Source of the DNA: Streptomyces sp. Tu 3180
Lineage (GTDB): Bacteria; Actinomycetota; Actinomycetes; Streptomycetales; Streptomycetaceae
Assembly: GCF_009852415.1 (NCBI RefSeq)
Contig: NZ_WOXS01000002.1
Coordinates: 6,860,001 to 6,924,000 of the forward strand
Length of the DNA stretch: 64,000 nucleotides
Reading direction: 5' to 3'
Shown here: positions 9,539 to 63,870 of the stretch, one piece after another
How the letters are laid out: the number at the start of each line of letters is the position of its first letter
How positions within the stretch are numbered: position 1 is the first letter of the stretch
Program-made: the position numbers and the translations under genes
The notes under the pieces: generated by a model
What the model was told of the DNA's origin: nothing
What the model saw: the letters and a program-made list of their open reading frames with translations, nothing else
The model's database searches: none

Positions 9539-11344
9539 TCAGCGCTTGGCATATTCGCGGAAGCCGCGGCCGGTCTTGCGGCCGAGGCAGCCCGCGGCCA
9601 CCAGGTGCTCCAGCAGCGGCGCCGGGGCGAGACCCGGGTCGCGGAACTCGCGGTGCAGGACCTTCTCGATGGCGAGCGAGACGTCCAGCCCGACGACGTC
9701 CAGCAGCTCGAAGGGACCCATCGGGTAGCCGCCGCCCAGCTTCATCGCGGCGTCGATGTCGTCCAGGGACGCGTAGTGCTCCTGCACCATCTTGATCGCG
9801 TTGTTGAGGTACGGGAACAGCAGCGCGTTCACGATGAAGCCGGCCCGGTCGCCGCAGTCCACGGCGTGCTTGCGGATCTTCCCGCAGACCTCGCGCACCG
9901 TCGCGTGCACGTCGTCGGCGGTCAGCACCGTGCGCACGACCTCGACCAGCTTCATGGCCGGCGCCGGGTTGAAGAAGTGCATGCCGATCACGTCCTGCGG
10001 GCGCGAGGTGGCGCGGGCACAGGCGACGACCGGGAGGGAGGAGGTGGTGGTGGCGAGCACCGCACCCGGCTTGCAGACCTTGTCCAGCGTCGCGAACAGC
10101 TGCCGCTTGACCTCCAGGTCCTCGGCGATCGCCTCGAGGGCGAGGTCGACGTCGGCGAAGTCGTCGTAGGTGCCCGTCGGCCGGATCAGCTCCAGGGTCC
10201 TCGCGGCGGCCTCGGCGGTCATCCGGCCCTTGTCGACGGAGCGCGCCAGGGACTTGCCGACGCGCGCCCTGGCCGCCTGTGCCTTCTCCTCGCTGCGGGC
10301 GGCCAGGACCACCTCGTAACCGGCCTTGGCGAAGACCTCGGCGATGCCGGAGGCCATCGTGCCGGAGCCCGCGACGCCCACCGAGCGCACCGGACGGCCG
10401 GCGACGGGGGAACCGCCCTCCGGCGGGGTCAGCGCGTCCCGCACGACGACGGCGCTGCCCGGCGCCTCGTACGTGTAGAAGCCGCGCCCGGCCTTGCGGC
10501 CCGTCAGGCCCGCCTCGCTGAGCTGCTTGAGGATCGGGGCGGGGGCGTGCAGCCGGTCCCGGGACTCGGCGTACATGGCCTCCAGCACCGTGCGCGCGGT
10601 GTCGACGCCGATCAGGTCGAGCAGTGCCAGCGGGCCCATGGGGAGCCCGCAGCCGAGCCGCATCGCGGCGTCGATGTCCTCGCGGGAGGCGTAGTGCGCC
10701 TCGTACATCGCGGCGGCCTGGTTGAGGTAGCCGAACAGCAGCCCGTCCGCGACGAATCCGGGCCGGTCGCCGACCGCGACCGGCTCCTTGCCGAGTTCCA
10801 GGGCGAGGTCGGTGACCGCGGTGACGGCCGCCGGGGCGGTCAGCACGGAGGAGACGATCTCCACCAGCCTCATCGCCGGGGCGGGGTTGAAGAAGTGCAT
10901 GCCCAGCACCCGCTCGGGGTGGGCCGAGTCGGCGGCGAGCCGGGTGACGGACAGGGCGTTGGTGCCGGTCGCCAGGATGGTCTCCGGCCGCACGATGCGG
11001 TCGAGTTCGCGGAGGATCTGCTGCTTGGTCTCGTACGACTCCGGCGCCACCTCGATCACCAGGTCGGCGCCGGCCGCCGCGGTGAGGTCGGTGGAGGTGC
11101 TCACGCGGGCGAGGGCGTCCGCGCGCTCCTGCTCGGTCAGGCGCCCGCGCTCCACGGCACGGGCGGTCGAGGCCTCCAGCGCGGCGACGCACTTCGCGGC
11201 CTGGGCCTCGCTGACGTCGATGCCGAGGACCTCGCGGCCGGCCTTGGCCAGGACCTCGGCGATGCCGGTGCCCATCGTGCCGAGGCCGACGACGGCGACG
11301 GTCCGCAGCGGGGACGGAGGGGTGGGGGACAGGGGAGTGGCCAT
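9539..11344 (-). CDS. Tandem (double-domain) 3-hydroxyacyl-CoA dehydrogenase
   Basis: NAD-dependent enzyme, probably a 3-hydroxybutyryl-CoA dehydrogenase, built from two complete copies of the family fold in one 601-aa chain. Copy 1 has its Rossmann motif V-V-G-L-G-T-M-G-T-G near residues 18-27. Copy 2 begins near residue 317 with V-A-G-S-G-T-M-A-S-G. Both carry the catalytic-His segment G-M-H-F-F-N-P-A-P-A-M and end with a G-R-G-F motif. Single-domain enzymes are about 285 aa, so this is a fused duplication. The 3-hydroxybutyryl/crotonyl-CoA step sits directly before Ccr, so the location next to the ccr operon makes metabolic sense. A GGAG ribosome site precedes the ATG at 11344. Confidence 0.9.
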   Translation of the reverse strand: MATPLSPTPPSPLRTVAVVGLGTMGTGIAEVLAKAGREVLGIDVSEAQAAKCVAALEASTARAVERGRLTEQERADALARVSTSTDLTAAAGADLVIEVAPESYETKQQILRELDRIVRPETILATGTNALSVTRLAADSAHPERVLGMHFFNPAPAMRLVEIVSSVLTAPAAVTAVTDLALELGKEPVAVGDRPGFVADGLLFGYLNQAAAMYEAHYASREDIDAAMRLGCGLPMGPLALLDLIGVDTARTVLEAMYAESRDRLHAPAPILKQLSEAGLTGRKAGRGFYTYEAPGSAVVVRDALTPPEGGSPVAGRPVRSVGVAGSGTMASGIAEVFAKAGYEVVLAARSEEKAQAARARVGKSLARSVDKGRMTAEAAARTLELIRPTGTYDDFADVDLALEAIAEDLEVKRQLFATLDKVCKPGAVLATTTSSLPVVACARATSRPQDVIGMHFFNPAPAMKLVEVVRTVLTADDVHATVREVCGKIRKHAVDCGDRAGFIVNALLFPYLNNAIKMVQEHYASLDDIDAAMKLGGGYPMGPFELLDVVGLDVSLAIEKVLHREFRDPGLAPAPLLEHLVAAGCLGRKTGRGFREYAKR

Positions 11345-11783
11345 CGCGGGACTCCAGGAATGAGGGTGACGACGGGAAACACGCCCGGGTGCGCCGAAGG
11401 GCGCACCGGGTGCGTGCGGAGGGAGTGCGGGTGTTGCCGGGCAGCGAGCGCACACGCCCGGTGCCGTCGGCCGGGCCCCCGCCCGGACGACCGGGAGCGG
11501 GGGAGGGCGTGCACACGCCCTGGTACGACGGCGGATCCGACCGGCCCTGTCCCGAGGCCGAGCCGTACTGCGGTACACGGGGTACCGAACCGACTGCCTC
11601 CCCCCACTGCCTCGAAGGCGTGGGAGGTGCCCCCGACGGCGGCCGCGTCACCAGACCGCCGTGAGGAGGGTCGCGAGTGGGTGACTCGCTCGTCTGAGCT
11701 TAACTCGCGGGTAACGAGCGCGCCAGCCCCCGGCTTTGTGATGTAGGTCCCGAGCGGCCCACCGCACCCCTAATCTCTGGGAC
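11345..11783. other. Divergent intergenic region (no gene)
   Basis: These 439 bp separate the minus-strand dehydrogenase from the plus-strand HEAT gene. I see one interspersed palindrome (11596-11635), a perfect 6-bp inverted repeat with a 5-nt spacer (GCGAGT and ACTCGC, 11673-11689), and a likely leaderless promoter for the HEAT gene ending at 11776. A 91-codon open frame on the plus strand (11389-11664) runs through the palindrome and has no family-like sequence, so I do not call it. Confidence 0.5.
11596..11635. repeat. GC-rich interspersed palindrome, copy 2 (intergenic)
   Basis: A CCTCCCCCCAC...GTGGGAGGTGCCCCC arrangement with a short TCGAA loop. The core (C-run, CAC, loop, GTG, G-run, GGTGCCCCC) is shared with copy 29531-29570. 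Confidence 0.6.
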
Positions 11784-52922: not shown

Positions 52923-54170
52923 ATGCGGCGGACGGACCCGGAAGGCCACGGCCCCGTCCGCTTCGGGCCGCCGGTCCCCGAGGACGGGCTTCCCGTCCTG
53001 CCCGAGCTGTCCGCCGTCCTCGCCGCGGCGGCGTCCCGGGCCGGCGCCGAACCGGTGGGCGGCGGCCCCGCCCTGCTGGACGCCGCCTGCGGCTACGGCG
53101 ACCGGCGCGGCCTGCCCGCCGCCCCCGACCGGGTGGCCGTCGCCCCAGGGGCGCCCGCCCTGCTGGTGGCCCTGACCGCCGCCGTCGGCGGTGACGTGCT
53201 GGTGCCCAGGCCCTGTGCCGCCTGGTGGGCCCCCTACGCCCGTCTGCTCGGCAGACCCGCCTTCCACGTGCCGACCCCGGCCGAGAGCGGCGGCGTACCC
53301 GACCCGTACGCCCTGCTGGAGACCGTGCGCCGGGTCCGCGCCGAGGGCGGCGACCCGCGCCTGCTGGTGCTCTCCGTCGCCGACGACCCCACCGCCACCG
53401 TCGCCCCGCCCGAGCTGCTGCACGAGACCCTCGAGGCCGCCGTCGGCCAGGGGCTGCACCTGGTCAGTGACGAGACCTGGCGGGACACCCTGCACGACCC
53501 GCACGACACGGTGCTGCTCAGTCCCGCCGAGATGCTGCCCGAGCGGGTCACCGTCGTCACCGACCTGGCGGGCGCCCTGCTCCCGCCGGGCTGGCCGGCC
53601 GCCGTCGCCCGCTTCCCGGCGGGCGAGGAGGGGAACGCCCTCCACGCGCGCGTGCTGGACGTGCTCACCGCCCTCGACGCGCGCGTGGCCGCCCCCGTGG
53701 CCGCCGCGGCGGGGTACGCGCTGTCCGAGCCGGAACCGGTCGCCACGCGCGTCGCCGCCGCCGTGCGCCTGCACGCGCGCGCGGCCGCCGCCGCCCACCA
53801 CGCCGTCGTCGCCGCCGGGGCCGTGGCCCGGCCCCCGCAGTGCGGACGGCACCTGTACGTCGACCTCACCCCCCTGGCCCCCGCGCTCGCCGCGCACGGC
53901 GTCGACGACGCCCAGGAGCTCGAGGACTTCCTCACCGACCGGCTCGGCATGCCCGCGCCGGGCGGCCACCGGTTCGGCGACGACCTCGAGGCCCCCCGCG
54001 TGCGGCTGTCCACCGCGCCCCTGCTCGGTGACACCGCCGAACGGCGCGCGGAATGCCTCCTCGCCCCCGAGCCGCTGGAACTGCCGCACGTGCACCGTGC
54101 GTTGATCCACCTGAAGTCGGTCTTCGACGATCTCCGCGACGACGTTCAGCGATGGGAGCCTCCTCGATGA
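52923..54170 (+). CDS. Aminotransferase-like protein lacking the PLP lysine
   Basis: A 415-aa protein with the overall layout of fold-type I aminotransferases. V-L-S-V-A-D-D-P-T-A-T-V-A-P precedes L-V-S-D-E-T-W-R-D (cofactor ring Asp and the usual Tyr/Trp place), and A-P-R-V-R-L-S-T-A-P supplies the substrate carboxylate Arg. Where a Ser-Leu-Ser-Lys motif should bind PLP, the sequence reads V-V-T-D-L-A-G-A-L-L-P-P-G-W (about residue 216). The only lysine in the whole protein is near the C-terminus (about residue 398). It cannot form the normal Schiff base, so it is probably a non-catalytic or regulatory relative. It is coupled by ATGA to the MBL hydrolase that follows. Confidence 0.8.
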   Translation: MRRTDPEGHGPVRFGPPVPEDGLPVLPELSAVLAAAASRAGAEPVGGGPALLDAACGYGDRRGLPAAPDRVAVAPGAPALLVALTAAVGGDVLVPRPCAAWWAPYARLLGRPAFHVPTPAESGGVPDPYALLETVRRVRAEGGDPRLLVLSVADDPTATVAPPELLHETLEAAVGQGLHLVSDETWRDTLHDPHDTVLLSPAEMLPERVTVVTDLAGALLPPGWPAAVARFPAGEEGNALHARVLDVLTALDARVAAPVAAAAGYALSEPEPVATRVAAAVRLHARAAAAAHHAVVAAGAVARPPQCGRHLYVDLTPLAPALAAHGVDDAQELEDFLTDRLGMPAPGGHRFGDDLEAPRVRLSTAPLLGDTAERRAECLLAPEPLELPHVHRALIHLKSVFDDLRDDVQRWEPPR

Positions 54171-55312
54171 CGCAGCAGTCCGAGTCGACCGCGAGCACCA
54201 CCGGGAGACCGACCGCGAACACGACCGGGGGACCGGCCACCGGCGCGGCCGGCAGACCGGCGGCGGGCGCGGCCGCCGGCACGACCGCTCCGGAAGCCGA
54301 CGACCGCGACCCGGCCGTCCTCTCCCCTCCCGCGCCCCCCTGCCCCCCGCTGGCCGAACCCCGTCCGCTCGCCGAACGCCGGGTGTGGCCGCGCACCTTC
54401 CACGACCGGCTGACCGCCCCGCTGCCCGGGCTGAAGGCCCTGGCCCGCTTCGCCCGCGAGGGCGCCGTACGGCCGGGCCCCGAGGGCCTCGCCGACGCCC
54501 CCGGGCTGCCGTACGCCCCCGGTCCGCTGCCCCGCGTCGACGCCCGCACGGTCGCCGTCACCTGGGCGGGACACGCCAGCTGGGTCGTGCGGATCGGCGG
54601 CCTGACCGTGCTCACCGACCCGGTCTGGTCCCGCCGGATCCTCGGCACCCCGGCCCGCCTCACCCCCGTCGGCGTCGCCTGGGAGGAACTGCCGCGCGTC
54701 GACGCGGTCGTCATCAGCCACAACCACTACGACCACCTCGACGCCCCCACCCTGCGCCGGCTCCCGCGCGACACCCCGGTGTTCGTACCGGCCGGGCTCG
54801 CCCGCTGGTTCCACCGCCGCAGGTTCACCCGCGTCACCGAGCTGGACTGGTGGGAGGCGGCCGAACTGGACGGAGTCCGCTTCGACTTCGTGCCGGCCCA
54901 CCACTGGTCCAAGCGCACCCTCACCGACACCTGCCGCTCCCTGTGGGGCGGCTGGGTGCTCACCGACCGCGACGGGCGGCGCGTGTACTTCGCCGGCGAC
55001 ACCGGCTACGGCCACTGGTTCTCCCGGATCGGCCGCCGCTACCCCGGCATCGACCTCGCCCTGCTGCCCATCGGCGCCTACGACCCCCGCTGGTGGCTCA
55101 GGGACGTCCACTGCGACCCCGAGGAGGCGGTGTACGCCGCACAGGACCTGGGCGCGCGCCACATGGCCCCCATGCACTGGGCGACCTTCGTCCTCTCCGC
55201 GGAACCGGTCCTGGAGCCCCTCACCCGCGTCCGCGCCGCCTGGGAGAAGGCGGGACTGCCCCGCGAGCGCCTGTGGGACCTCCCGGTGGGCGGGTCCCGG
55301 ATCCTTCGGTGA
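54167..55312 (+). CDS. MBL-fold metallo-hydrolase, NAPE-PLD-like
   Basis: A 381-aa metallo-beta-lactamase-fold hydrolase. The first 110 residues are low-complexity Thr/Ala/Gly/Pro. The catalytic domain starts with V-T-W-A-G-H-A-S-W and V-L-T-D-P-V-W, then the metal motif S-H-N-H-Y-D-H-L-D (HxHxDH, about residue 186). It continues with F-V-P-A-H-H-W-S and Y-F-A-G-D-T-G-Y-G, and P-M-H-W-A-T-F near the end. The set matches the N-acyl-phosphatidylethanolamine phospholipase D/UlaG-like group, so phospholipid or cyclic ester hydrolysis is likely. No signal peptide. It is translated together with the lysine-less aminotransferase-like protein. Confidence 0.85.
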   Translation: MTQQSESTASTTGRPTANTTGGPATGAAGRPAAGAAAGTTAPEADDRDPAVLSPPAPPCPPLAEPRPLAERRVWPRTFHDRLTAPLPGLKALARFAREGAVRPGPEGLADAPGLPYAPGPLPRVDARTVAVTWAGHASWVVRIGGLTVLTDPVWSRRILGTPARLTPVGVAWEELPRVDAVVISHNHYDHLDAPTLRRLPRDTPVFVPAGLARWFHRRRFTRVTELDWWEAAELDGVRFDFVPAHHWSKRTLTDTCRSLWGGWVLTDRDGRRVYFAGDTGYGHWFSRIGRRYPGIDLALLPIGAYDPRWWLRDVHCDPEEAVYAAQDLGARHMAPMHWATFVLSAEPVLEPLTRVRAAWEKAGLPRERLWDLPVGGSRILR

Positions 55313-55347
55313 CGGGGACGCGACCCCTCGGCGACCGCGGCGGCGCG

Positions 55348-56025
55348 CTACCGCCCCGCCGCCCCCCGCAGCCGCCGCCACACCCCCGGCACCGCGCTGA
55401 TCAGCACGGTCAGCACGATCGCCGCGACCACGCCCTCCCACGGCTCGTCGAACAGCGAGCCGCCCAGGACGCCGATCAGCTGGTACGTCACCGCCCAGGC
55501 CAGGCAGGCCGGCAGATTGCCGCGGACGAAGCGGCGCATCGGCCACTTCGCGACCAGGCAGGCCAGCATCACCGGCAGCCGCCCGGCCGGCATCAGCCGG
55601 GACAGCACCAGCACCGCCACCCCGTGGTCGGCGAGCTTCTGCTGCGCCTGCGCCAGCCGGTCCTCCGGCGCGCGCGCCCGGATCGCCTCCAGCCAGCGGG
55701 AGCCGTTCCTCGACTTCATCCCGCGCCGCCCCAGCCAGTACAGCGCCACGTCCCCGAGGAACGCGGCCAGCGACGCCGTCACGAACACCAGCGCCAGCGA
55801 GATCGGCGCCGCCCGGTGGAGGGCCACCACGGCCGCCGAGCTGACCAGCGCCCCCGTCGGCACCACCGGCACCAGCGCCCCGATCAGCACCAGCAGGAAC
55901 AGCGACGGATACCCGACCGCCTGCTGGGTGGAGTCCGACACCACGGTCACCGGGACGGTCGCCGGTACGGCCGCCGCGGACAGGTGCGCCCCGGCCGCCC
56001 CGACCGGGGCGGTGGACAGGATCAC
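55348..56025 (-). CDS. DedA family membrane protein
   Basis: A 225-aa integral membrane protein of the DedA/VTT family, members of which act in lipid flipping and envelope homeostasis. The blocks F-L-G-D-V-A-L-Y-W-L-G-R-R-G, R-L-M-P-A-G-R-L-P-V-M-L-A and W-A-V-T-Y-Q-L-I-G-V-L-G-G (the last with the G-x-x-x-G pattern) are typical. The start is a GTG at 56025 that overlaps the stop of the upstream MBL gene as GTGA, so the two are one transcript. It lies convergent with the NAPE-PLD-like gene, and all three may belong to lipid metabolism. Confidence 0.88.
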   Translation of the reverse strand: MILSTAPVGAAGAHLSAAAVPATVPVTVVSDSTQQAVGYPSLFLLVLIGALVPVVPTGALVSSAAVVALHRAAPISLALVFVTASLAAFLGDVALYWLGRRGMKSRNGSRWLEAIRARAPEDRLAQAQQKLADHGVAVLVLSRLMPAGRLPVMLACLVAKWPMRRFVRGNLPACLAWAVTYQLIGVLGGSLFDEPWEGVVAAIVLTVLISAVPGVWRRLRGAAGR

Positions 56026-56795
56026 CGCGCGACCTCCGGACGCACGCTCTCCCCGTGCCCGAGCCGGTGCACCGCCACCCCGGGCGCCCGCACGGCGGCC
56101 AGCCGCACGAACTCGTCGCCCGGCGCGTGGAACTCGTGCGGACGCACGGCGTCCATCCCGATCGGCCAGTACGTGCCGTAGTGCACCGGCACCGCGCTGC
56201 GCGCCCCCAGCCGGGCCAGCGCCTCGGCCGCGCGCCCCGCGTCCAGGTGCCCCTCGCCGAGGTGGGGTCCCCAGCCGCCCACCGGGAGCAGCGCCACGTC
56301 GACCGGCCCGACCTCCTTGGCCATCGCGTCGAACAGTCCGGTGTCCCCGGCGAAGTAGGTGCGCGCCTCGCCCTCCAGGACGTAGCCGAGGGCGGGGGAG
56401 CGGTGCGGCCCGACCGGCAGCCGCCGCCCGTCGTGCCGCGCGGGGACGGCGCGTACGACCAGGGAGCCGACCGTCGTCACGTCGCCCGGCGCCACCTCGC
56501 TCACGTCGAGATGAGTGAGCCGGCGCAGCCCCGGTACGGCACGTCGTGCGCCCCGGGGCACGAGCAGGCGCGTGCCCGGGGCGAGCCGCGCGAGCGAGGG
56601 CACGTGCAGATGGTCGGCGTGCAGGTGGGAGACCAGGGCCACGTCCGCGTGCCGGGCCTCGGCCGGCGGCACCGCGCCGCGCCGGCGCCGCAGGTGCGCG
56701 AGCCGGCGGGCGAACAGGGGGTCGGTGAGCACGCGGGTGTGCGAGTCCTCGACCGTGCACGTGGCGTGACCCCACCAGGTGACCTCCACCGGCAC
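56022..56795 (-). CDS. MBL-fold metallo-hydrolase (UlaG-like)
   Basis: A 257-aa metallo-beta-lactamase-fold protein with T-W-W-G-H-A-T-C, V-L-T-D-P-L-F-A, the metal motif S-H-L-H-A-D-H-L (HxHxDH, about residue 63), and T-Y-F-A-G-D-T-G and V-P-V-H-Y-G-T-Y. It is half of the size of the other MBL protein (the 54167 gene) and lacks its long N-terminal tail. The GTG at 56795 is chosen for a strong AAGGAGG...GGAGGA site. It is coupled to the dedA gene. Substrate is unknown; UlaG itself hydrolyses ascorbate-6-phosphate lactone. Confidence 0.85.
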   Translation of the reverse strand: MPVEVTWWGHATCTVEDSHTRVLTDPLFARRLAHLRRRRGAVPPAEARHADVALVSHLHADHLHVPSLARLAPGTRLLVPRGARRAVPGLRRLTHLDVSEVAPGDVTTVGSLVVRAVPARHDGRRLPVGPHRSPALGYVLEGEARTYFAGDTGLFDAMAKEVGPVDVALLPVGGWGPHLGEGHLDAGRAAEALARLGARSAVPVHYGTYWPIGMDAVRPHEFHAPGDEFVRLAAVRAPGVAVHRLGHGESVRPEVAR

Positions 56796-56877
56796 TCCTC
56801 CGCCTCCTTCGCGCGACTCCCCGAAGCCTACGTGCAGGAGTAGGGTCGGCGGCGAAGACCGGAGATGAGGGGGCGTC

Positions 56878-57279
56878 ATGGGGCCGGTCCGGGTGACGGC
56901 GATCGCGAGTCTGACGCCGCTGGAGGAACTGGACGCCGATCCCTTCCTGGTGGACTCCCGCAGCCAGCACGCCATGTGCGCCCGCTGGGCCGCCGAACGC
57001 GGCTACGTGGTGGCCCGGGAACTGCTCGTGCGGGGACTGCGCCCCGACCACGGCGCCCTGTGGGAGGGCGTACGGCCCGGCGCCGACGTGTTCGTGGCGC
57101 CCAGCCGGCGGGTCCTGGAGCGCGCCCTGTCCTCCGTCGAGGAGTTCACCGCGGAGTGCGCGCGGCGCGGGGTGCGCGTGGAGACGGTGGGCCGCGCCGA
57201 ACCGTCGTACGACGCGGCGATGAAGGCCCGTGTGCACCGCCGGCTGTCCCTGCCGACCGCCGGCTACGACGGCCGCTGA
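56878..57279 (+). CDS. Degenerate serine-recombinase-like (resolvase fold) protein
   Basis: A 133-aa protein resembling the N-terminal catalytic domain of resolvases: V-D-S-R-S-Q-H-A-M-C-A-R-W-A-A-E-R-G-Y, then A-D-V-F-V-A-P-S-R-R-V-L-E-R-A, and F-T-A-E-C-A-R-R-G-V-R-V-E-T-V. These fit the spacing of the Q-x-x-x-C, ldRl-R and g-v-x-v-x-s segments of that family. The Y-x-R-V-S catalytic start is replaced by T-A-I-A-S-L-T, so the Arg and its Ser arrangement are gone and recombination is unlikely. No DNA-binding tail follows. It may be a domesticated resolvase-fold protein. This relationship is by eye and tentative. Confidence 0.5.
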   Translation: MGPVRVTAIASLTPLEELDADPFLVDSRSQHAMCARWAAERGYVVARELLVRGLRPDHGALWEGVRPGADVFVAPSRRVLERALSSVEEFTAECARRGVRVETVGRAEPSYDAAMKARVHRRLSLPTAGYDGR

Positions 57280-57367
57280 GCCGCCGGCGGCCCGGGCGAC
57301 CGGGGACGAAGCACCCCTTCCGGCCGTTGTGACAGGGTGGACGAGGGCTAGGGCCGGAACGTGAGGT

Positions 57368-59452
57368 GTGCTGGGCGTGGTGGGTGGCGGGCGGTGGCGG
57401 CGGATCGCCAGTCAGATCGGGCGGAGCATCGCCGTGTGGGTGGTCTCCACGCTCACCATGCTGCTGCTCGCCGGGATCCTGCCGGACTTCCGGCTGCGCT
57501 CGGCCGACGGCGACAGCGCCACCGACATCGCGGTCACCGCCGTGCTCGGCGCCGGCGCCTTCGGCCTGCTGTCCGCCCTCGTCTGGCCGCTGCTGGTGCG
57601 GCTGCTGCTGCTCGTACCGGCGCTCGTCCTCGGCCTGCTGGTGTTCTTCCTCAACGGCGCGCTGCTGTGGCTGGCCCTGCGCCTGAACCCCGTCGAACGC
57701 GGCGACGCCGCCCCGGAGACGGCGGTGGTGGTGGCCGCCGTGATGTCCGCCGTCGCCTCCGCCACCGGCGCCGCCCTCGCCGTACGCGACGACGACGCCT
57801 ACCGCCGCCGCCTCTACCGCCTGGCCGACCGCCGGCGCCGCACCGACCCGCCCTGCCCGGACACGCCCGGCACCGTCTTCCTGCAACTCGACGGCGTCGG
57901 CCACGACGTCCTGCTGGACGCCGTCGGCAAGGACCTGATGCCCACCGTCGCCCGCTGGCTCGGCACCGGCACCGGCGACCGGCCCACCCACCGGCTCATC
58001 CCCTGGCGCACCGACTGGTCCAGCCAGACCGGCGCCAGCCAGCTCGGCATCCTGCACGGCAGCAACCACGACGTGCCCGCCTTCCGCTGGTACGAGAAGG
58101 CCCGCCGCGAGGTGATGGTCTGCAACCGCCCCACCAGCGCCGCCGAACTCCAGGCCCGCGCCATCGAGCACTCCGGGCACGCCGGCCTGCTCGCCGAGGA
58201 CGGCGCCAGCCGCGGCAACCTCTTCGGCGGCGGCGCCGACGAGCAGGCCCTGGTGCTGTCCATCGCCACCCGCCGCCGCGGCCCGGGGGCCCGCTCCCGC
58301 GCGGGCTACTTCGCGTACTTCTCCGACCCCGCCAACGCCGTGCGCACCGCCCTGTCCTTCGTCGCCGAGGTCGGCCGCGAGATAGGCCAGTCCACCCGGG
58401 CCCGGCTCGCGAAGCAGCGCCCGCGCGTCTCCCGCGGCGGGCTGTACCCGTTCGTCCGGGCGTTCGCCACGGTCGTCGAGCGGGACGTCGTCGTCGCCGC
58501 CGTCATGGGCGACCTGCTCGCCGGCCGCACCGCCGTCTACGCCGACCTGGTCGCCTACGACGAGGTGGCCCACCACTCCGGACCGTCGAGCAGGGACGCC
58601 GAGAAGGTCCTCCAGCGCCTCGACCGCGCCCTCGCCCTGATCGAGAAGGTCGCCGAGCACGCCCCGCGCCCGTACCGGATCGTCGTCCTGTCCGACCACG
58701 GGCAGAGCCCCGGTGAGACCTTCCGCGCCCGCTACGGCCTCACCCTCGGCGACCTGGTGCGGGCCGGCTGCGGACTGCCCGTGCCGCGCAGGGCGCGCCG
58801 CACCCACAGCGGCGCGGAGGCCCGCGCGGCCGTCCGGGCGGCGCTGCGCCGGCCGGTCGAGGAGGGGGCCGAGCACTACCGGCCCACCCGCGGCTCGGAG
58901 CCCGTCGTGCTCGCCTCCGGCAACCTCGGCCTGGTCTCCTTCCCGGACGTGCCGCACCGGATGACCAAGGAGGAGATCGACGCCCGCCACCCCGCGCTGC
59001 TGCCGACCCTCGCCAACCACCCCGGCATCGGCTTCCTGCTGGTGCGCAGCGAGGTCCACGGCGGGGTCGTGCTCGGCGCGTACGGAGCGCAGATCCCGCT
59101 GGCGGAGCTGGACGACGACCCGGGGCCGCTCGCGGCCTTCGGCCCCGGCGCCGCGGACGTCGTGCGCCGCACCCACACCTTCCCGCACACCGCCGACATC
59201 ATGGTCAACTCCTTCCACGACCCGGCCGACGGCGAGGTCCTCGCCTTCGAGGAGCAGATCGGTTCCCACGGCGGTCTCGGCGGCGCCCAGTCCCGCCCGT
59301 TCCTGCTGTCCCCGCTCGCGCTGTCCCCACCGGTCCCCGACGGAGCGGAACTCGCCGGCGCCGAGCAGGTCCACCACGTACTGCGGCGCTGGCTGAAGGA
59401 GTCGGGGGACGCGCGCCGGCCCGAGGAACCGCGCCGGGAACGCGCGGCCTGA
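57368..59452 (+). CDS. Membrane-anchored phosphodiesterase (holin-like TM domain + alkaline phosphatase superfamily)
   Basis: A 694-aa fusion. Residues about 20-135 form three to four hydrophobic helices (A-V-W-V-V-S-T-L-T-M-L-L-L-A-G, then L-L-L-L-V-P-A-L-V-L-G-L-L-V-F) like mycobacterial phage-holin family proteins. Residues about 170-660 form an alkaline-phosphatase-superfamily phosphodiesterase domain: metal and nucleophile segments include Q-L-D-G-V-G, W-S-S-Q-T-G-A, A-Y-D-E-V-A-H-H-S, L-S-D-H-G-Q-S and G-S-H-G-G-L-G-G. It would hydrolyse phosphodiester or phosphate groups, perhaps in the envelope. The GTG at 57368 is the likely start; another GTG 9 codons on is possible. Confidence 0.8.
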   Translation: MLGVVGGGRWRRIASQIGRSIAVWVVSTLTMLLLAGILPDFRLRSADGDSATDIAVTAVLGAGAFGLLSALVWPLLVRLLLLVPALVLGLLVFFLNGALLWLALRLNPVERGDAAPETAVVVAAVMSAVASATGAALAVRDDDAYRRRLYRLADRRRRTDPPCPDTPGTVFLQLDGVGHDVLLDAVGKDLMPTVARWLGTGTGDRPTHRLIPWRTDWSSQTGASQLGILHGSNHDVPAFRWYEKARREVMVCNRPTSAAELQARAIEHSGHAGLLAEDGASRGNLFGGGADEQALVLSIATRRRGPGARSRAGYFAYFSDPANAVRTALSFVAEVGREIGQSTRARLAKQRPRVSRGGLYPFVRAFATVVERDVVVAAVMGDLLAGRTAVYADLVAYDEVAHHSGPSSRDAEKVLQRLDRALALIEKVAEHAPRPYRIVVLSDHGQSPGETFRARYGLTLGDLVRAGCGLPVPRRARRTHSGAEARAAVRAALRRPVEEGAEHYRPTRGSEPVVLASGNLGLVSFPDVPHRMTKEEIDARHPALLPTLANHPGIGFLLVRSEVHGGVVLGAYGAQIPLAELDDDPGPLAAFGPGAADVVRRTHTFPHTADIMVNSFHDPADGEVLAFEEQIGSHGGLGGAQSRPFLLSPLALSPPVPDGAELAGAEQVHHVLRRWLKESGDARRPEEPRRERAA

Positions 59453-59601
59453 GCCCTCCCCGGTGCCCCGGCGGGCGCCGTTCGCCCCCGGGGTGCCGGA
59501 AATTCGGCTGCGCGCGTGATCGCCGCGGCCCAGACTGTCCGTACCGGACGCCGCACCGCCGCGCGTCCCGCCCCCCTTCCCGGACCCCCAGGAGCCGCTG
59601 C

Positions 59602-60663
59602 GTGCAGGCAGCCGTCACCGTCACCCCCGCCCGCGTCCCGGAGCTGCTGCTCGGTCTCGCGACCGTGCGGCCGGTCTTCCTCTGGGGCGCACCCGGCATC
59701 GGGAAGTCCTCCCTGGTGAGGGAGTTCGCCCAGTCCCTGGGGCTGGAGTGCGTGAGTCTGCTGGGCACCCAGCTCGCCCCCGAGGACCTCATCGGCGTGC
59801 CGCAGATCCGTGACGGCCGCTCGGTGTTCTGCCCGCCGGAGGCGATCGCCCGCGACGAGCCGTACTGCCTGTTCCTGGACGAGCTCAACGCGGCCACCCC
59901 GGACGTGCAGAAGGCGTTCTACTCGCTGATCCTGGACCGCCGCATCGGCGACTACGAGCTGCCCGAGGGCTCCGTCGTCATCGGCGCCGGCAACCGCGCC
60001 ACCGACAACGCGCTCGCCCGCCCCCTCGCCTCCGCGCTGGTCAACCGCCTCACCCACGTCCACCTGGAGGCCTCGCCGAAGGACTGGCTGGTCTGGGCGG
60101 CGGACAACGGCATCCACCCCTGGATCACCGACCACCTCACCGACCGGCCCGACCACCTGTGGTCCAAGCCGCCGAAGACCGAGGAGCCGTTCTCCACCCC
60201 CCGCTCCTGGCACATGCTCTCCGACGCGCTGCACTCCTTCGGCCGCGACCTCGACGAGGACACCCTGAGGGTCCTCGCCCACGGCACGCTCACCCCCGCG
60301 CACGCCACCGCCTTCTGCGGCTACGTCAAGATCGTGCGCAGCCGCTTCGGGATCGACGCCGTCATCAAGGGCGAAGCCCGCTGGCCGCACCGGCCGGAGG
60401 ACCGCGACCTGCTGTACTACCTCGCCGAGTCCTTCCGTGGCCGGCTGGTCAAGGAACTGCCGGCGAGCAGGGAGCACATGTCGGCGAACGGCCGCCAGAC
60501 CGCGTACCGCGCCAAGTCGCTGCTGGTGCAGCTCGCCGAGATCTCCGTCGAGGTGGCCCAGAGCGTCATCGCCTCCGACGCCGACGGCAACCCGGTCCTG
60601 CCGTCCTGGTTCCTGGTCGAGGCGGCCCGCGACATGCCCCGGCTGGTGGAGGCGCGGCGATGA
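59602..60663 (+). CDS. MoxR-type AAA ATPase
   Basis: A 353-aa AAA+ ATPase with Walker A W-G-A-P-G-I-G-K-S-S (about residues 29-38), Walker B Y-C-L-F-L-D-E-L-N-A-A (about 91-101), a sensor-like G-A-G-N-R-A-T-D, and an Arg-rich C-terminal lid. MoxR ATPases act as chaperones that load or activate partner proteins, usually VWA-domain proteins encoded next door. Here the next gene, joined by an ATGA overlap, is exactly such a protein. The GTG at 59602 begins the V-Q-A-A-V-T-V-T N-terminus. Confidence 0.9.
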   Translation: MQAAVTVTPARVPELLLGLATVRPVFLWGAPGIGKSSLVREFAQSLGLECVSLLGTQLAPEDLIGVPQIRDGRSVFCPPEAIARDEPYCLFLDELNAATPDVQKAFYSLILDRRIGDYELPEGSVVIGAGNRATDNALARPLASALVNRLTHVHLEASPKDWLVWAADNGIHPWITDHLTDRPDHLWSKPPKTEEPFSTPRSWHMLSDALHSFGRDLDEDTLRVLAHGTLTPAHATAFCGYVKIVRSRFGIDAVIKGEARWPHRPEDRDLLYYLAESFRGRLVKELPASREHMSANGRQTAYRAKSLLVQLAEISVEVAQSVIASDADGNPVLPSWFLVEAARDMPRLVEARR

Positions 60664-62492
60664 CCCGGCCCCGGACGAAGGGGCGGAAGAAGCGGGACCT
60701 CGCGGGGGAGGCGTTCGACGCCGGGCTCCGCCTGGTGCGGGCCAACCCCGCGCTGGCCGCCGTCGACTTCGACGTCTGCCGCCGGGAGAACTGCGAGCTC
60801 GCCCCCCGGGAGGGGCTGGTCCGCGTGGACTCCGAGGCCGTCCTGCACGCCCACCCGGACCGCACGGCCGACCCGGACACCTGGGCGTGGGCCCTCGCCC
60901 ACGCCGTCCTCCACCTCGGCTTCGGCCATGTCCCGGCCGCCAAGGGCACGCGCGAGCAGCCGGACCGCTGCGAGCTCGCCGCCCGCTGCGTGGTCGTCAA
61001 CCGCTTCCTGCTCGGCTTCCCCGTCGGCAGGACGCCCGACCACCTGCCCGCCGCCTACCCCGACGGGGACGAGGAGCAGCTCGCCGCGCGCTGGCGACGG
61101 GACGGGGTCCCGGCCGTGTACGAGCGCTGCGGCACGGCGGGCGGCGAGGCGGACCTGTTCCTCCAGGAGTGGTACGGCTGGTACGGGCAGCCGCCGGACC
61201 ACCAGCTGGCGTTCGCCACCGCGCTCACCCGCACCGTGTCCGCCGCGATGGACATGGCGGGCGGCCGCCTCGACAGCCTGGACGGCAAGAGGGTCCCACG
61301 GCGTCCCTGGGAGCGGGCGCTCGGCTGGTTCGTCTCCTCCTACCCCCTGCTCGGCGGCATCGCGGCCGGCATCACCCTCGTCGCCGACGCCGAACTCGCC
61401 CGCGCCCACGGCATCTCCGTCGCCGCCGTCGACGCCGGGGCGGGCGAGATCTACGTCAACCCGCTGCGGCAGTTCGACGACGAGGAATGGCGGTTCGTCC
61501 TCGCCCACGAGATGCTGCACGCCGCCCTGCGCCACGGCGACCGCTGCGGCGCCCGCGACCCCTACCTGTTCAACGTCGCCTGCGACTACGTCGTCAACGG
61601 CTGGCTCGTCGAGATGCAGGTCGGCACCATGCCCGAGGGCCTGCTGTACGACAGGGAGCTCGCCGGGCTGTCCGCCGAGGAGGTCCACGACCGGATCGCC
61701 GGCGACCTCAGGCGCATGCGGCGCCTGGCCACCCCGCGCGGCAAGGGCGTCGGCGACGTCCTCGGCGGTCCGCTCGGCCCGCCCCGCGACCACGTCGACC
61801 TCGACGGTTTCTACCGCCGCGGCCTCGCCCAGGGCCTGGACCTGCACGAGCGGCAGGAGCGCGGCTTCCTGCCCGGCGGACTGGTCGAGGAGATCCGCGC
61901 GCTCAGCCACCCGCCGCTGCCCTGGGACGCGCGGCTCGCCCGCTGGTTCGACGAGTTCGTGCCCCGCCCCGAGCCGGTGCGCTCCTACGCCCGCCCCTCG
62001 CGCCGCCAGGCGTCCACCCCGGACATCCCCCGCGCCGGGCGGTACTTCCCGCCCGAGGAGACGGCGCGCTGCACCTTCGGCGTCGTCCTGGACACCTCCG
62101 GTTCCATGGACCGGGTCCTGCTCGGCAAGGCCCTCGGCGCCATCGCCTCCTACGCCGAGGCCCGCGACGTGCCGGCCGCCCGCGTGGTGTTCTGCGACGC
62201 GGCGCCGCACGACGCCGGCTACCTGCCGGTCACCGGGATCGCCGTGGGGGCACCTCCCAGGCCTTTTGGGCTCTGGGGGAGCGTGCGGGTGCACGGCCGG
62301 GGCGGCACCGTCCTGCAGCCCGGCGTCGACCTGCTGCAGCGCGCGGACGACTTCCCGCCCACCGCGCCGGTCCTCGTCATCACCGACGGCCGGTGCGACG
62401 TGCTGCGGGTCCGGCGCGAGCACGCCTACCTCCTCCCGCGGGGCGCGCGGCTGCCGTTCACCGCGAGGGGGCCCGTCTTCCGGGTGAGTTGA
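60660..62492 (+). CDS. DUF2201-type metallopeptidase/VWA protein, MoxR partner
   Basis: A 610-aa protein with two halves. The N-terminal half contains an HExxH zinc-protease helix (A-H-E-M-L-H-A-A-L-R-H, His near residue 283) and, earlier, a similar A-H-A-V-L-H-L-G-F-G-H (about residue 80) without the Glu. The C-terminal half is a VWA-like domain with the metal site D-T-S-G-S-M (about residue 478). The layout matches putative metallopeptidases annotated DUF2201. With its AAA partner it would form a chaperone/protease unit. An interspersed palindrome (62244-62282) is inserted in frame just before the VWA domain's end. Substrate is unknown. Confidence 0.85.
   Translation: MTRPRTKGRKKRDLAGEAFDAGLRLVRANPALAAVDFDVCRRENCELAPREGLVRVDSEAVLHAHPDRTADPDTWAWALAHAVLHLGFGHVPAAKGTREQPDRCELAARCVVVNRFLLGFPVGRTPDHLPAAYPDGDEEQLAARWRRDGVPAVYERCGTAGGEADLFLQEWYGWYGQPPDHQLAFATALTRTVSAAMDMAGGRLDSLDGKRVPRRPWERALGWFVSSYPLLGGIAAGITLVADAELARAHGISVAAVDAGAGEIYVNPLRQFDDEEWRFVLAHEMLHAALRHGDRCGARDPYLFNVACDYVVNGWLVEMQVGTMPEGLLYDRELAGLSAEEVHDRIAGDLRRMRRLATPRGKGVGDVLGGPLGPPRDHVDLDGFYRRGLAQGLDLHERQERGFLPGGLVEEIRALSHPPLPWDARLARWFDEFVPRPEPVRSYARPSRRQASTPDIPRAGRYFPPEETARCTFGVVLDTSGSMDRVLLGKALGAIASYAEARDVPAARVVFCDAAPHDAGYLPVTGIAVGAPPRPFGLWGSVRVHGRGGTVLQPGVDLLQRADDFPPTAPVLVITDGRCDVLRVRREHAYLLPRGARLPFTARGPVFRVS
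62244..62282. repeat. GC-rich interspersed palindrome, copy 5 (inside VWA gene)
   Basis: GTGGGGGCACCTCCCAGGCC, then TTTTGGGCTCTGGGGGAGCG. It reads in frame as V-G-A-P-P-R-P-F-G-L-W-G in the middle of the VWA domain, where a shorter loop would be expected. The lower-GC TTTT is unlike the rest of the gene. Confidence 0.6.
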
Positions 62493-62514
62493 GCCGTAGT
62501 GTGATCGGATGGAG

Positions 62515-62542
62515 CCGGGAGCCCGGTGGCCCGGGCTCCCGG
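62515..62542 (+). terminator. Terminator of the MoxR/VWA operon
   Basis: A perfect 12-bp stem (CCGGGAGCCCGG, 62515-62526, with 62531-62542) with a 4-nt TGGC loop, 23 bp after the VWA gene stop. Confidence 0.65.
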
Positions 62543-62590
62543 ACCGAGCACAGCCGGACACAGGGCCGGACATTTTCGAAAGGATGCGTC

Positions 62591-63019
62591 ATGGCAGCCA
62601 CGCGCTCCGCACACACCGTTTGGGAAGGCAACCTGTTCAAGGGCAGCGGGGTCGTCACCTTCGACTCCTCCGGCAGCATCGGCGAGCAGCCGGTCACCTG
62701 GGCGTCGCGCGCCGAGGAGGCCAACGGGAAGACCAGCCCGGAGGAGCTGATCGCCGCCGCGCACTCCAGCTGCTTCTCGATGGCCCTCTCCAACGGCCTC
62801 GACAAGGCCGGCACCCCGCCGACCCGTCTGACGACCTCCGCCGACGTCACCTTCGTGCCCGGTGAGGGCATCACCGGCATCCACCTCACCGTCGAGGGCG
62901 CCGTGCCCGGCCTGGACGAGGCCGGCTTCGTCGCCGCCGCCGAGGACGCCAAGGTCAACTGCCCGGTCAGCCAGGCGCTGAAGGGCACGAACATCACCCT
63001 GACGGCGAAGCTCGCCTGA
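62591..63019 (+). CDS. OsmC/Ohr family peroxiredoxin-like protein
   Basis: A 142-aa protein of the OsmC family, which reduces organic hydroperoxides. The two redox cysteines are present: A-A-H-S-S-C-F-S-M-A-L (Cys near residue 59) and K-V-N-C-P-V-S-Q-A-L (Cys near residue 124). The G-K-T-S-P-E-E-L-I-A-A-A N-terminal block matches OsmC more than Ohr. ATG with a GAAAGGA site. Stress-inducible in many bacteria; the palindromic terminator after it separates it from the next gene. Confidence 0.93.
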   Translation: MAATRSAHTVWEGNLFKGSGVVTFDSSGSIGEQPVTWASRAEEANGKTSPEELIAAAHSSCFSMALSNGLDKAGTPPTRLTTSADVTFVPGEGITGIHLTVEGAVPGLDEAGFVAAAEDAKVNCPVSQALKGTNITLTAKLA

Positions 63020-63040
63020 CCCGCTCGCCGCGTCGAACCA

Positions 63041-63072
63041 CCGCGGGCCGCCCCGGCCGGGGCGGCCCGCGG
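63041..63072 (+). terminator. Palindromic terminator after the OsmC gene
   Basis: A 32-bp perfect palindrome (63041-63056 with 63057-63072) 21 bp after the OsmC stop; as RNA it would fold into a stem of about 14 bp with a 4-nt tip. Confidence 0.65.
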
Positions 63073-63099
63073 CACGTCCCCCTCCGGGAGCCGACCACC

Positions 63100-63870
63100 A
63101 TGACGCCACGCCCCGCCGTCTCCGCCCACCAGGGGGGCTCCGAACGCGCCGCCCCGGCCACCCGTGAGGCGTACGAGGACGCGCTCGCGTCCGGCGCCGA
63201 GTACGCCGAGTTCGACGTCCGGCGCACCGCGGACGGCGTCTTCGTCGTCCACCACGACGCCCGGGTGCGCCGCACCGGGCCCCTGCTGTCCACGCTCACC
63301 CACGCCGAACTGGACGAGCGCGCCGGCTATCCCGTGCCCGTCGTGGACGACGTCATGGCGCTGGTCGCCGGGAAGCTCGTCGGGCACCTGGACCTGAAGG
63401 AGACGGGCCACGAGAAGGAGCTGGTCGACCGCGCGACCGCCCTGCTCGGCGAGGACGGCTTCGTGGTCACCACGCTGGAGGACCGGTCCCTCGCGGCCGT
63501 CACCCGCGCCTTCCCCCGGGTGCGCACCGCGCTGTCCCTCGGCCGGGACGGCAAGGACGTCGGCCGCGGCCGGCTGGTGTCCACCCGGCTGAGCGAGCTG
63601 CTGCCGATGCGCCGCGTCCGCGCCTGCGGGGCCCACGGGGTCGCCGTGCACCAGCGCCTGGCCCGTGCCACGGTGCTGCGCGAGGCGGCCCGCAACGGGC
63701 TGTTCACCATGGTGTGGACGGTCAACGAGGACACGGCGCTGCGCGCGTTCCTCACCGACCCGCGGGTGGACGTGCTGGTCACCGACCGCCCGCGGCGCGC
63801 CGTGGAACTGCGCGCCGCCTCTTCCACCGCGCCCGTCCGCACCCGCCGCTTCCGCCGGCCGGCCGGTTGA
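63100..63870 (+). CDS. Glycerophosphodiester phosphodiesterase
   Basis: A 256-aa TIM-barrel GDPD that hydrolyses glycerophosphodiesters to glycerol-3-phosphate and an alcohol. The N-terminal catalytic motif is A-H-Q-G-G-S-E-R-A-A-P, where E. coli GlpQ has H-R-G, so the first Arg is replaced by Gln. The metal-site E-F-D-V-R-R-T-A-D-G and V-V-H-H-D segments follow, with G-H-L-D-L-K and M-V-W-T-V-N near the end. No signal peptide, so it is cytosolic. It is the last gene before dnaK. Confidence 0.88.
   Translation: MTPRPAVSAHQGGSERAAPATREAYEDALASGAEYAEFDVRRTADGVFVVHHDARVRRTGPLLSTLTHAELDERAGYPVPVVDDVMALVAGKLVGHLDLKETGHEKELVDRATALLGEDGFVVTTLEDRSLAAVTRAFPRVRTALSLGRDGKDVGRGRLVSTRLSELLPMRRVRACGAHGVAVHQRLARATVLREAARNGLFTMVWTVNEDTALRAFLTDPRVDVLVTDRPRRAVELRAASSTAPVRTRRFRRPAG

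Follow-up and report, generated by a model that had tools for sequence, protein, structure and literature searches.

The stretch of DNA examined here (the window, 64,000 nucleotides (nt) in its whole length) is taken from the genome of Streptomyces sp. Tu 3180 (own genome, G000, 8.63 Mb; contig C2:6860001-6924000). It carries two adjoining genes, here called gene A and gene B, of which gene A encodes a MoxR-type AAA ATPase and gene B a protein with a metallopeptidase domain and a von Willebrand factor A (VWA) domain, and within the VWA part of gene B lies a short palindrome. The locus is very probably a MoxR/peptidase-VWA unit in which a dispersed palindromic repeat of Streptomyces has been inserted in frame into gene B. 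The gene pair is ordinary, and the embedded palindrome is the part worth keeping. All features with their positions are given in Table 1.

Table 1. Positions in the window of the two genes, the motifs of gene B, the inserted repeat and a second copy of the repeat family (MIDAS, metal-ion-dependent adhesion site)
Feature	Position	Strand	Remark
Gene A, MoxR-type AAA ATPase, 353 aa	59602..60663	+	Pfam AAA_5; Walker A/B read from sequence
Gene B, 610 aa: degenerate peptidase-like N-terminal half, DUF2201_N metallopeptidase, VWA domain	60660..62492	+	
HAVLH, residues 81-85, degenerate N-terminal copy	60900..60914	+	alignment of 110 sequences
HEMLH, residues 283-287, predicted zinc-peptidase site	61506..61520	+	same in 109/110 aligned rows, remaining row a gap
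DTSGSM, residues 478-483, first MIDAS motif of VWA domain	62091..62108	+	
Net in-frame insertion, 33 nt, residues 529-539 (VGAPPRPFGLW)	62244..62276	+	protein-level alignment; ends ambiguous by a few bases
Core of dispersed palindromic repeat, GGGGGCAC tag and bulged hairpin	62246..62281	+	
GRGGT, residues 546-550, with MIDAS Thr550	62295..62309	+	begins 7 residues past the last inserted residue
Second copy of the repeat family inside the window	11598..11634	-	

Gene A starts with GTG, 7 nt downstream of an AGGAG at 59590-59594, and its reading frame overlaps that of gene B by ATGA (60660-60663). Its protein carries the Walker A GAPGIGKS and the Walker B LFLDE and scores 45.2 bits against Pfam AAA_5 (cut-off 22); AAA_3 (PF07726), which is the Pfam model customary for MoxR, gave 24.6 bits and the bpMoxR model 22.9 bits, both under their cut-offs of 27. 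The Walker A/B AAA domain together with an adjoining VWA partner places gene A among the MoxR AAA ATPases. Gene B matches DUF2201_N (PF13203) over residues 243-451 with 84.0 bits (cut-off 23.2), and the residues of its MIDAS (D478, S480, S482, T550 and D576) are conserved in every aligned row but one (109 of 110), which has a gap there. The VWA part was matched by no Pfam model at E 0.1. The AlphaFold2 (AF2) model of gene B is of middling quality (mean predicted local distance difference test score, pLDDT, 72.3; predicted template-modelling score, pTM, 0.44). The structural rows that fit the C-terminal part of this model best come from VWA and integrin I domains (best Z 7.8, 107 residues, 3.5 A), the VIA-align comparison covered chiefly residues 432-588, and a Foldseek search of the model against PDB gave nothing at E <= 0.001, with VWA domains in its top rows. 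The earlier note on this DNA had described a compact MoxR/peptidase-VWA unit of ATGA-coupled genes, and this stands, with both frames, the overlap, the HEMLH site and the MIDAS-type VWA domain all in place.

That note also took the HAVLH of the N-terminal half for an inactive copy of the peptidase site. Residues 58-130 and 260-329 of gene B share 31% identity over 70 columns (hhalign probability 76%, E 2e-5, one comparison), and in the AF2 model the N-terminal copy (E54-57, E61-64, H72-88, H103-117) and the peptidase core (E255-258, E263-266, H274-290, H301-319) have the strand-strand-helix-helix order in common. The HAVLH region seems to be a degenerate duplicate of the peptidase core; alignment and model both support such a copy. 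It is a fixed feature of the protein and not a local decay: both His are invariant in 110/110 sequences, and the Glu position is A, G or C in all 110. Because it is conserved in this way, the degenerate copy is probably useful to the protein. Another locus (L188) was considered as a carrier of the same two-copy architecture and was set aside as unsupported.

A working scheme for the pair can be borrowed from NorQ/NorD (PMC9976466). By this analogy the VWA domain of gene B would plug the MoxR ring, with the MIDAS metal holding the client; ATP hydrolysis by the ring would then remodel the client and the HEMLH site would cleave it.

The palindrome had earlier been called odd, and it is indeed a real feature: it is an insertion, and it belongs to a family of repeats. 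The 11 extra residues before the MIDAS Thr are missing from 109/109 aligned orthologous loci (29 loci from genomes of the genus and 80 from the genome_contigs set; the two sets may share strains). At the DNA level, comparison with the empty sites gives a net gain of 33 nt in gene B, and the frame and the conserved residues are undisturbed. It is the insertion and the membership in a repeat family which lift the palindrome above chance and not its folding energy, which is ordinary in its context (z -1.35; 17/200 shuffles as stable). Judged from its codons, gene B remains under constraint in its own lineage, with no excess of amino-acid change. The rough dN/dS is 0.19-0.25 against five relatives, and the window branch has 10 amino-acid-changing and 33 silent codons compared with 13 and 22 in one relative (L073); in the four other comparisons the window branch has 10-16 changing and 29-37 silent codons, and the relatives 14-21 and 23-37.

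The repeat is built of a 5′ tag, GGGGGCAC, followed by a bulged hairpin (CTCCC..GG-GGGAG) with a covarying stem, a GG bulge and a GGGAG end. The genus was searched with the pattern GGGGGCACCTCCC-N4..30-GGGGGAG, using the reversed pattern as control. This gave 609 matches in 78/121 genomes of the genus, with nested hairpins of one genome (G089) counted repeatedly, a maximum of 118 per genome, and 1 match of the control. The highest number belongs to the same G089 (5.7 Mb, L061), where some of the 118 strict matches are nested double hairpins. The constancy of the tag and of the 3′ end is not independent evidence for the family, because both are set by the search pattern. Outside the genus the repeat was found in 1/238 genomes of the phylum, and the family is largely genus-bound. 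That one genome (G267; L162 and other places) belongs to another genus of the class, and its 8 matches have a form peculiar to it, for the most part with the short loop GCTTGC. In the window genome there are 3 strict matches, all within 84 kb (C2:6839049-6922281), and 12 matches to a relaxed pattern (control 0), some perhaps by chance, which are spread wider. The second copy in the window lies near the 5′ end of a coding-like frame at 9542-11647 (-).

The stem of the repeat covaries. In 17 aligned copies of 36 nt, 98.2% of the cells pair and 7 cells are changed on both sides, whereas slid registers reach at most 59.4% pairing with no double change, a comparison that is biased towards the drawn structure because this was derived from such copies. 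None of 500 shuffles reaches the pairing share, the double changes or the covariation score; the two remaining structure measures are reached by 201/500 and 142/500. When 65 distinct inner sequences, from among the copies listed, were folded with the GG bulge omitted and compared with their own shuffles, 42 equalled or surpassed 95% of them in stability (mean z -2.2). The cores of these 65 sequences are 30-43 nt long and their inner parts differ between subfamilies. In the open-access literature searched no description of the repeat was found; the papers holding the searched letter strings concern axolotl and human.

The same kind of insertion was then traced in other genes. By comparison of filled with empty sites, insertion of the repeat could be shown, at the sequence level, in four genes, namely gene B, a cyclase-family gene, HPPD and PNKP. 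The cyclase-family gene of the own genome has 12 extra residues, where 28/29 relatives, some of them distant, have a gap of at least 7 residues and the remaining locus (L202) a gap of 6. HPPD of one strain (G022) has 9 extra residues, which are a gap of 9 residues in 29/29 relatives and also against the solved structure 1T47. The ligase loop of PNKP is occupied by three repeat subfamilies, one each in G081, G022 and G012; among 30 PNKP loci compared, 18 have a gap of 10-11 residues, 2 have the repeat, a further 2 seem by eye to retain remnants and the last 8 are filled with something else. This loop of the ligase domain has the appearance of a hot spot of the repeat, with subfamilies differing by strain (L047, L261, L266, L267, L268). 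The net insertion is the core minus 4 in 5/6 filled sites and the core minus 3 in gene B. Further copies, 41 in number and being those for which loci were returned, were tested by frame and by GC content at third codon positions (GC3), and 13 of them are in frame inside coding genes, a strict count that still takes in loose matches such as L154; an earlier, looser test gave 17/42 with the window copy included. The copies which disrupted genes would presumably have been lost, leaving the frame-keeping lengths. The 80 orthologous loci and 12 kb of the window contain 2 copies of the repeat in 1.36 Mb, one being the window's own, and therefore give no further empty sites.

The leading guess for the movement of the repeat is that an enzyme would insert it as a single-strand hairpin. 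Target-site duplication, which would be expected of a MITE with terminal inverted repeats, is not evident in gene B, the cyclase or HPPD, where the junction bases are ambiguous. Gene B and the cyclase are most simply read as having received the insertion directly 5′ of GGAG, that is, 3′ of CTCC on the other strand, and IS200/IS605 elements insert just 3′ of a short target in such a manner. A strict rule of insertion before GGAG fits part of the sites only and is kept as a lead. The Y1 transposase (PF01797) was considered as the mover and was rejected, its presence having no clear association with the repeat matches. The four genomes with the most matches are all without PF01797, and among the top six it is missing from G089, G096, G069, G018 and G120 and partial in G054. 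We tentatively propose, as a possibility short of an even chance, a class of mobile hairpins of Streptomyces' own, with neither the GTAG nor the CGTC tag and moved by an enzyme other than Y1, which would create in-frame loops of about 9-12 residues across the genus, would have preferred sites of entry such as the PNKP loop, and whose subfamilies would land there repeatedly.

Several observations weigh against an ordinary unit entered by a mobile repeat. On the side of the repeat, the coding share of 13/41 is to be set against 295/480 for random nearby positions under the same test; the repeat is probably an extragenic-type element which lands in genes only sometimes, selected against there but common. 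The loop length of PNKP varies without the repeat (8/30), and tolerant loops may be the cause of the hot spot. A GGAG target in HPPD requires a base change, PNKP gives no neat fit, and GGAG is found in just 9/109 of the gene B empty sites. PF01797 has 0 matches in the window genome, and the median number of repeat matches per genome is 3.0 with PF01797 and 1.0 without (P 0.096, 121 genomes). What is known of the movement comes from presence and absence between strains, and AF2 models the insertion loop with a pLDDT below 50 whether the insert is present or absent, at which the structural effect is unreadable. On the side of the pair, none of the solved structures had a sequence match of weight to gene B (best E 0.085), and the partnership of A and B, the remodelling and the cleavage are what we infer by analogy as the function of the pair.

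These points have to be seen beside the other explanations of the palindrome. It might have arisen in place in gene B by slippage or template switching, unrelated to any family, as GC-rich hairpins are common and its energy in context is not unusual; with 609 matches against 1 of the reversed control and a similar copy (inner part AGGCC...GGCTCT) at C2:5748277 of the same genome, such an origin has next to no chance. A role of the hairpin as regulatory RNA, be it terminator, attenuator or stabiliser of the mRNA, selected within the gene B transcript, is also very improbable. An action on transcripts is assumed for REP hairpins (PMC3733652), but the present hairpin is missing from all 109 other orthologous loci, no T-run was seen 3′ of it, and Rfam, run on 12 loci, gave no match to the repeat, its sole match being to a trypanosome snoRNA family (27.2 bits, cut-off 50) and lying off the repeat. 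Spread of the short hairpins through gene conversion or homologous recombination, with no insertion enzyme, is a serious rival even if on balance an unlikely one. The lack of a clear transposase association and the different hairpin subfamilies at one PNKP site, as expected from conversion at an old insertion, speak for it; against it stand the short insertions at unrelated sites (gene B, cyclase, HPPD), where the relatives have no homologous repeat, and the empty PNKP site of L279 and L289, which are seemingly close to G012 by sequence. Insertion of a dispersed repeat by an enzyme is preferred to conversion for the present case.

For the gene pair the alternative is that it serves, as a system so far undescribed, in anti-phage defence or conflict, and that MoxR would activate the protease upon infection; the earlier note had pointed to a conflict or defence setting. 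Conflict systems predicted in multicellular bacteria do include MoxR-vWA couples (PMC7159879), the HExxH of gene B is intact and the pair is patchy in the genus, where 49/121 genomes match gene B at E 0.001 and 42/121 above 900 bits, own genome included. Yet PADLOC and NCBIfam gave nothing for gene B and only weak P-loop matches for gene A (PADLOC E 0.011-0.057), PADLOC gave nothing for five neighbours of the pair, the bpMoxR score is below its cut-off, and none of the partners VMAP, iSTAND, FtsH or a beta-propeller was found among the neighbours, which were typed by Pfam within 54053-63870. The neighbourhood is also kept. In the 80 most similar of 252 genome_contigs loci, a choice which overstates the synteny and of which 73 extend 3.5 kb upstream, MoxR and OsmC are present in 80, a phosphodiesterase in 78, two MBL-fold genes in 73 each, a VTT-domain (DedA-type) gene in 73 and a small resolvase-like gene, itself below the Pfam cut-off, in 72, so that every typed neighbour except GDPD (32/80) is found in 72-80 of the loci; MoxR ends less than 200 nt from gene B in 79/80, by alignment ends. 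The neighbourhood is a stable chromosomal block and not a defence island. The search for a conserved third gene returned just this general block, the conflict or defence setting drew neither a PADLOC match of weight nor a third partner of the ternary systems among the typed neighbours, and a defence function is improbable.

Nor does the pair look undescribed as a type, given the conserved synteny in Streptomyces and a MoxR-like reading frame in 27/29 DUF2201_N loci (1.8-3.8 kb around the matches; window locus included, several loci sharing one genome or being fragments of one gene, and one match, L184, weak at E 4e-4). DUF2201_N itself is present in 19/246 genomes sampled across the phylum. 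The pair is an ordinary MoxR-VWA-type unit of a widespread kind. It resembles NorQ/NorD and RavA/ViaA in having a MoxR ATPase adjoining a MIDAS-type VWA protein (PMC9976466, PMC3893208) and differs from them in that the VWA protein adds the DUF2201 metallopeptidase and its degenerate duplicate. With the MoxR-vWA ternary conflict systems (PMC7159879) it shares MoxR and VWA partners, whereas their third component is not among the neighbours typed here and no PADLOC match has weight. No description of the function of DUF2201 was found in the open-access literature searched.

The inserted repeat, in turn, resembles two known kinds of element and is filed as neither, because the GTAG/CGTC tag test and the link to a transposase both fail. 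Like the repetitive extragenic palindromic (REP) elements (PMC3733652), it is a dispersed hairpin of which one end bears a fixed tag, those being 20-40 nt long, mostly extragenic and sometimes intragenic, and it is likewise a small dispersed palindrome with a covarying stem. REP tags are GTAG or CGTC, whereas here GGGGGCAC stands in front and GGGGGAG at the hairpin end (both set by the pattern), and the association of REP with a Y1 (RAYT) transposase is not seen for the Streptomyces repeat. In the main text of the REP paper the name Streptomyces does not occur (PMC3733652). With the Rickettsia palindromic elements (RPE) the repeat shares the entry of a palindrome in frame into unrelated protein genes (PMC10969869, PMC3733652), which is found here by sequence comparison in gene B, the cyclase, HPPD and PNKP and by the frame test in 13/41 further copies. 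RPE were about 150 bp as first reported (PMC10969869), whereas the Streptomyces cores have 30-43 nt and belong to another phylum; RPE-4 and RPE-6 are said to be the counterparts of short intragenic CGTC repeats in R. conorii (PMC3733652). The hairpin, the absence of an evident target duplication and the possible junction tetranucleotide (CTCC on the other strand) recall IS200/IS605 (Y1) and the REP-associated Y1, from which the present case differs by a window genome without PF01797 and by a target rule holding at part of the sites only.

Some of the strain-specific extra loops in conserved Streptomyces proteins may be repeat and not adaptive sequence, which is of relevance to annotators and protein engineers, as Streptomyces genomes are heavily mined for enzymes and natural products. 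The genus would be a further bacterial group, besides Rickettsia and the REP-bearing species, that tolerates a palindromic repeat inside its proteins. This raises the simple question of how a hairpin of 33 nt is moved where the genome has no Y1 transposase.

Two further genes were noticed around the subject of the pair. In the frame at 57368-59452 (+), upstream of the pair in 78/80 loci, a type I phosphodiesterase is fused with a domain of the 'mycobacterial phage holin superfamily IV' that has four transmembrane segments. The own genome also has a second DUF2201 gene (L175, G000:C2:6176917-6177669), with a higher Pfam score than gene B and with a MoxR-like frame adjoining it.

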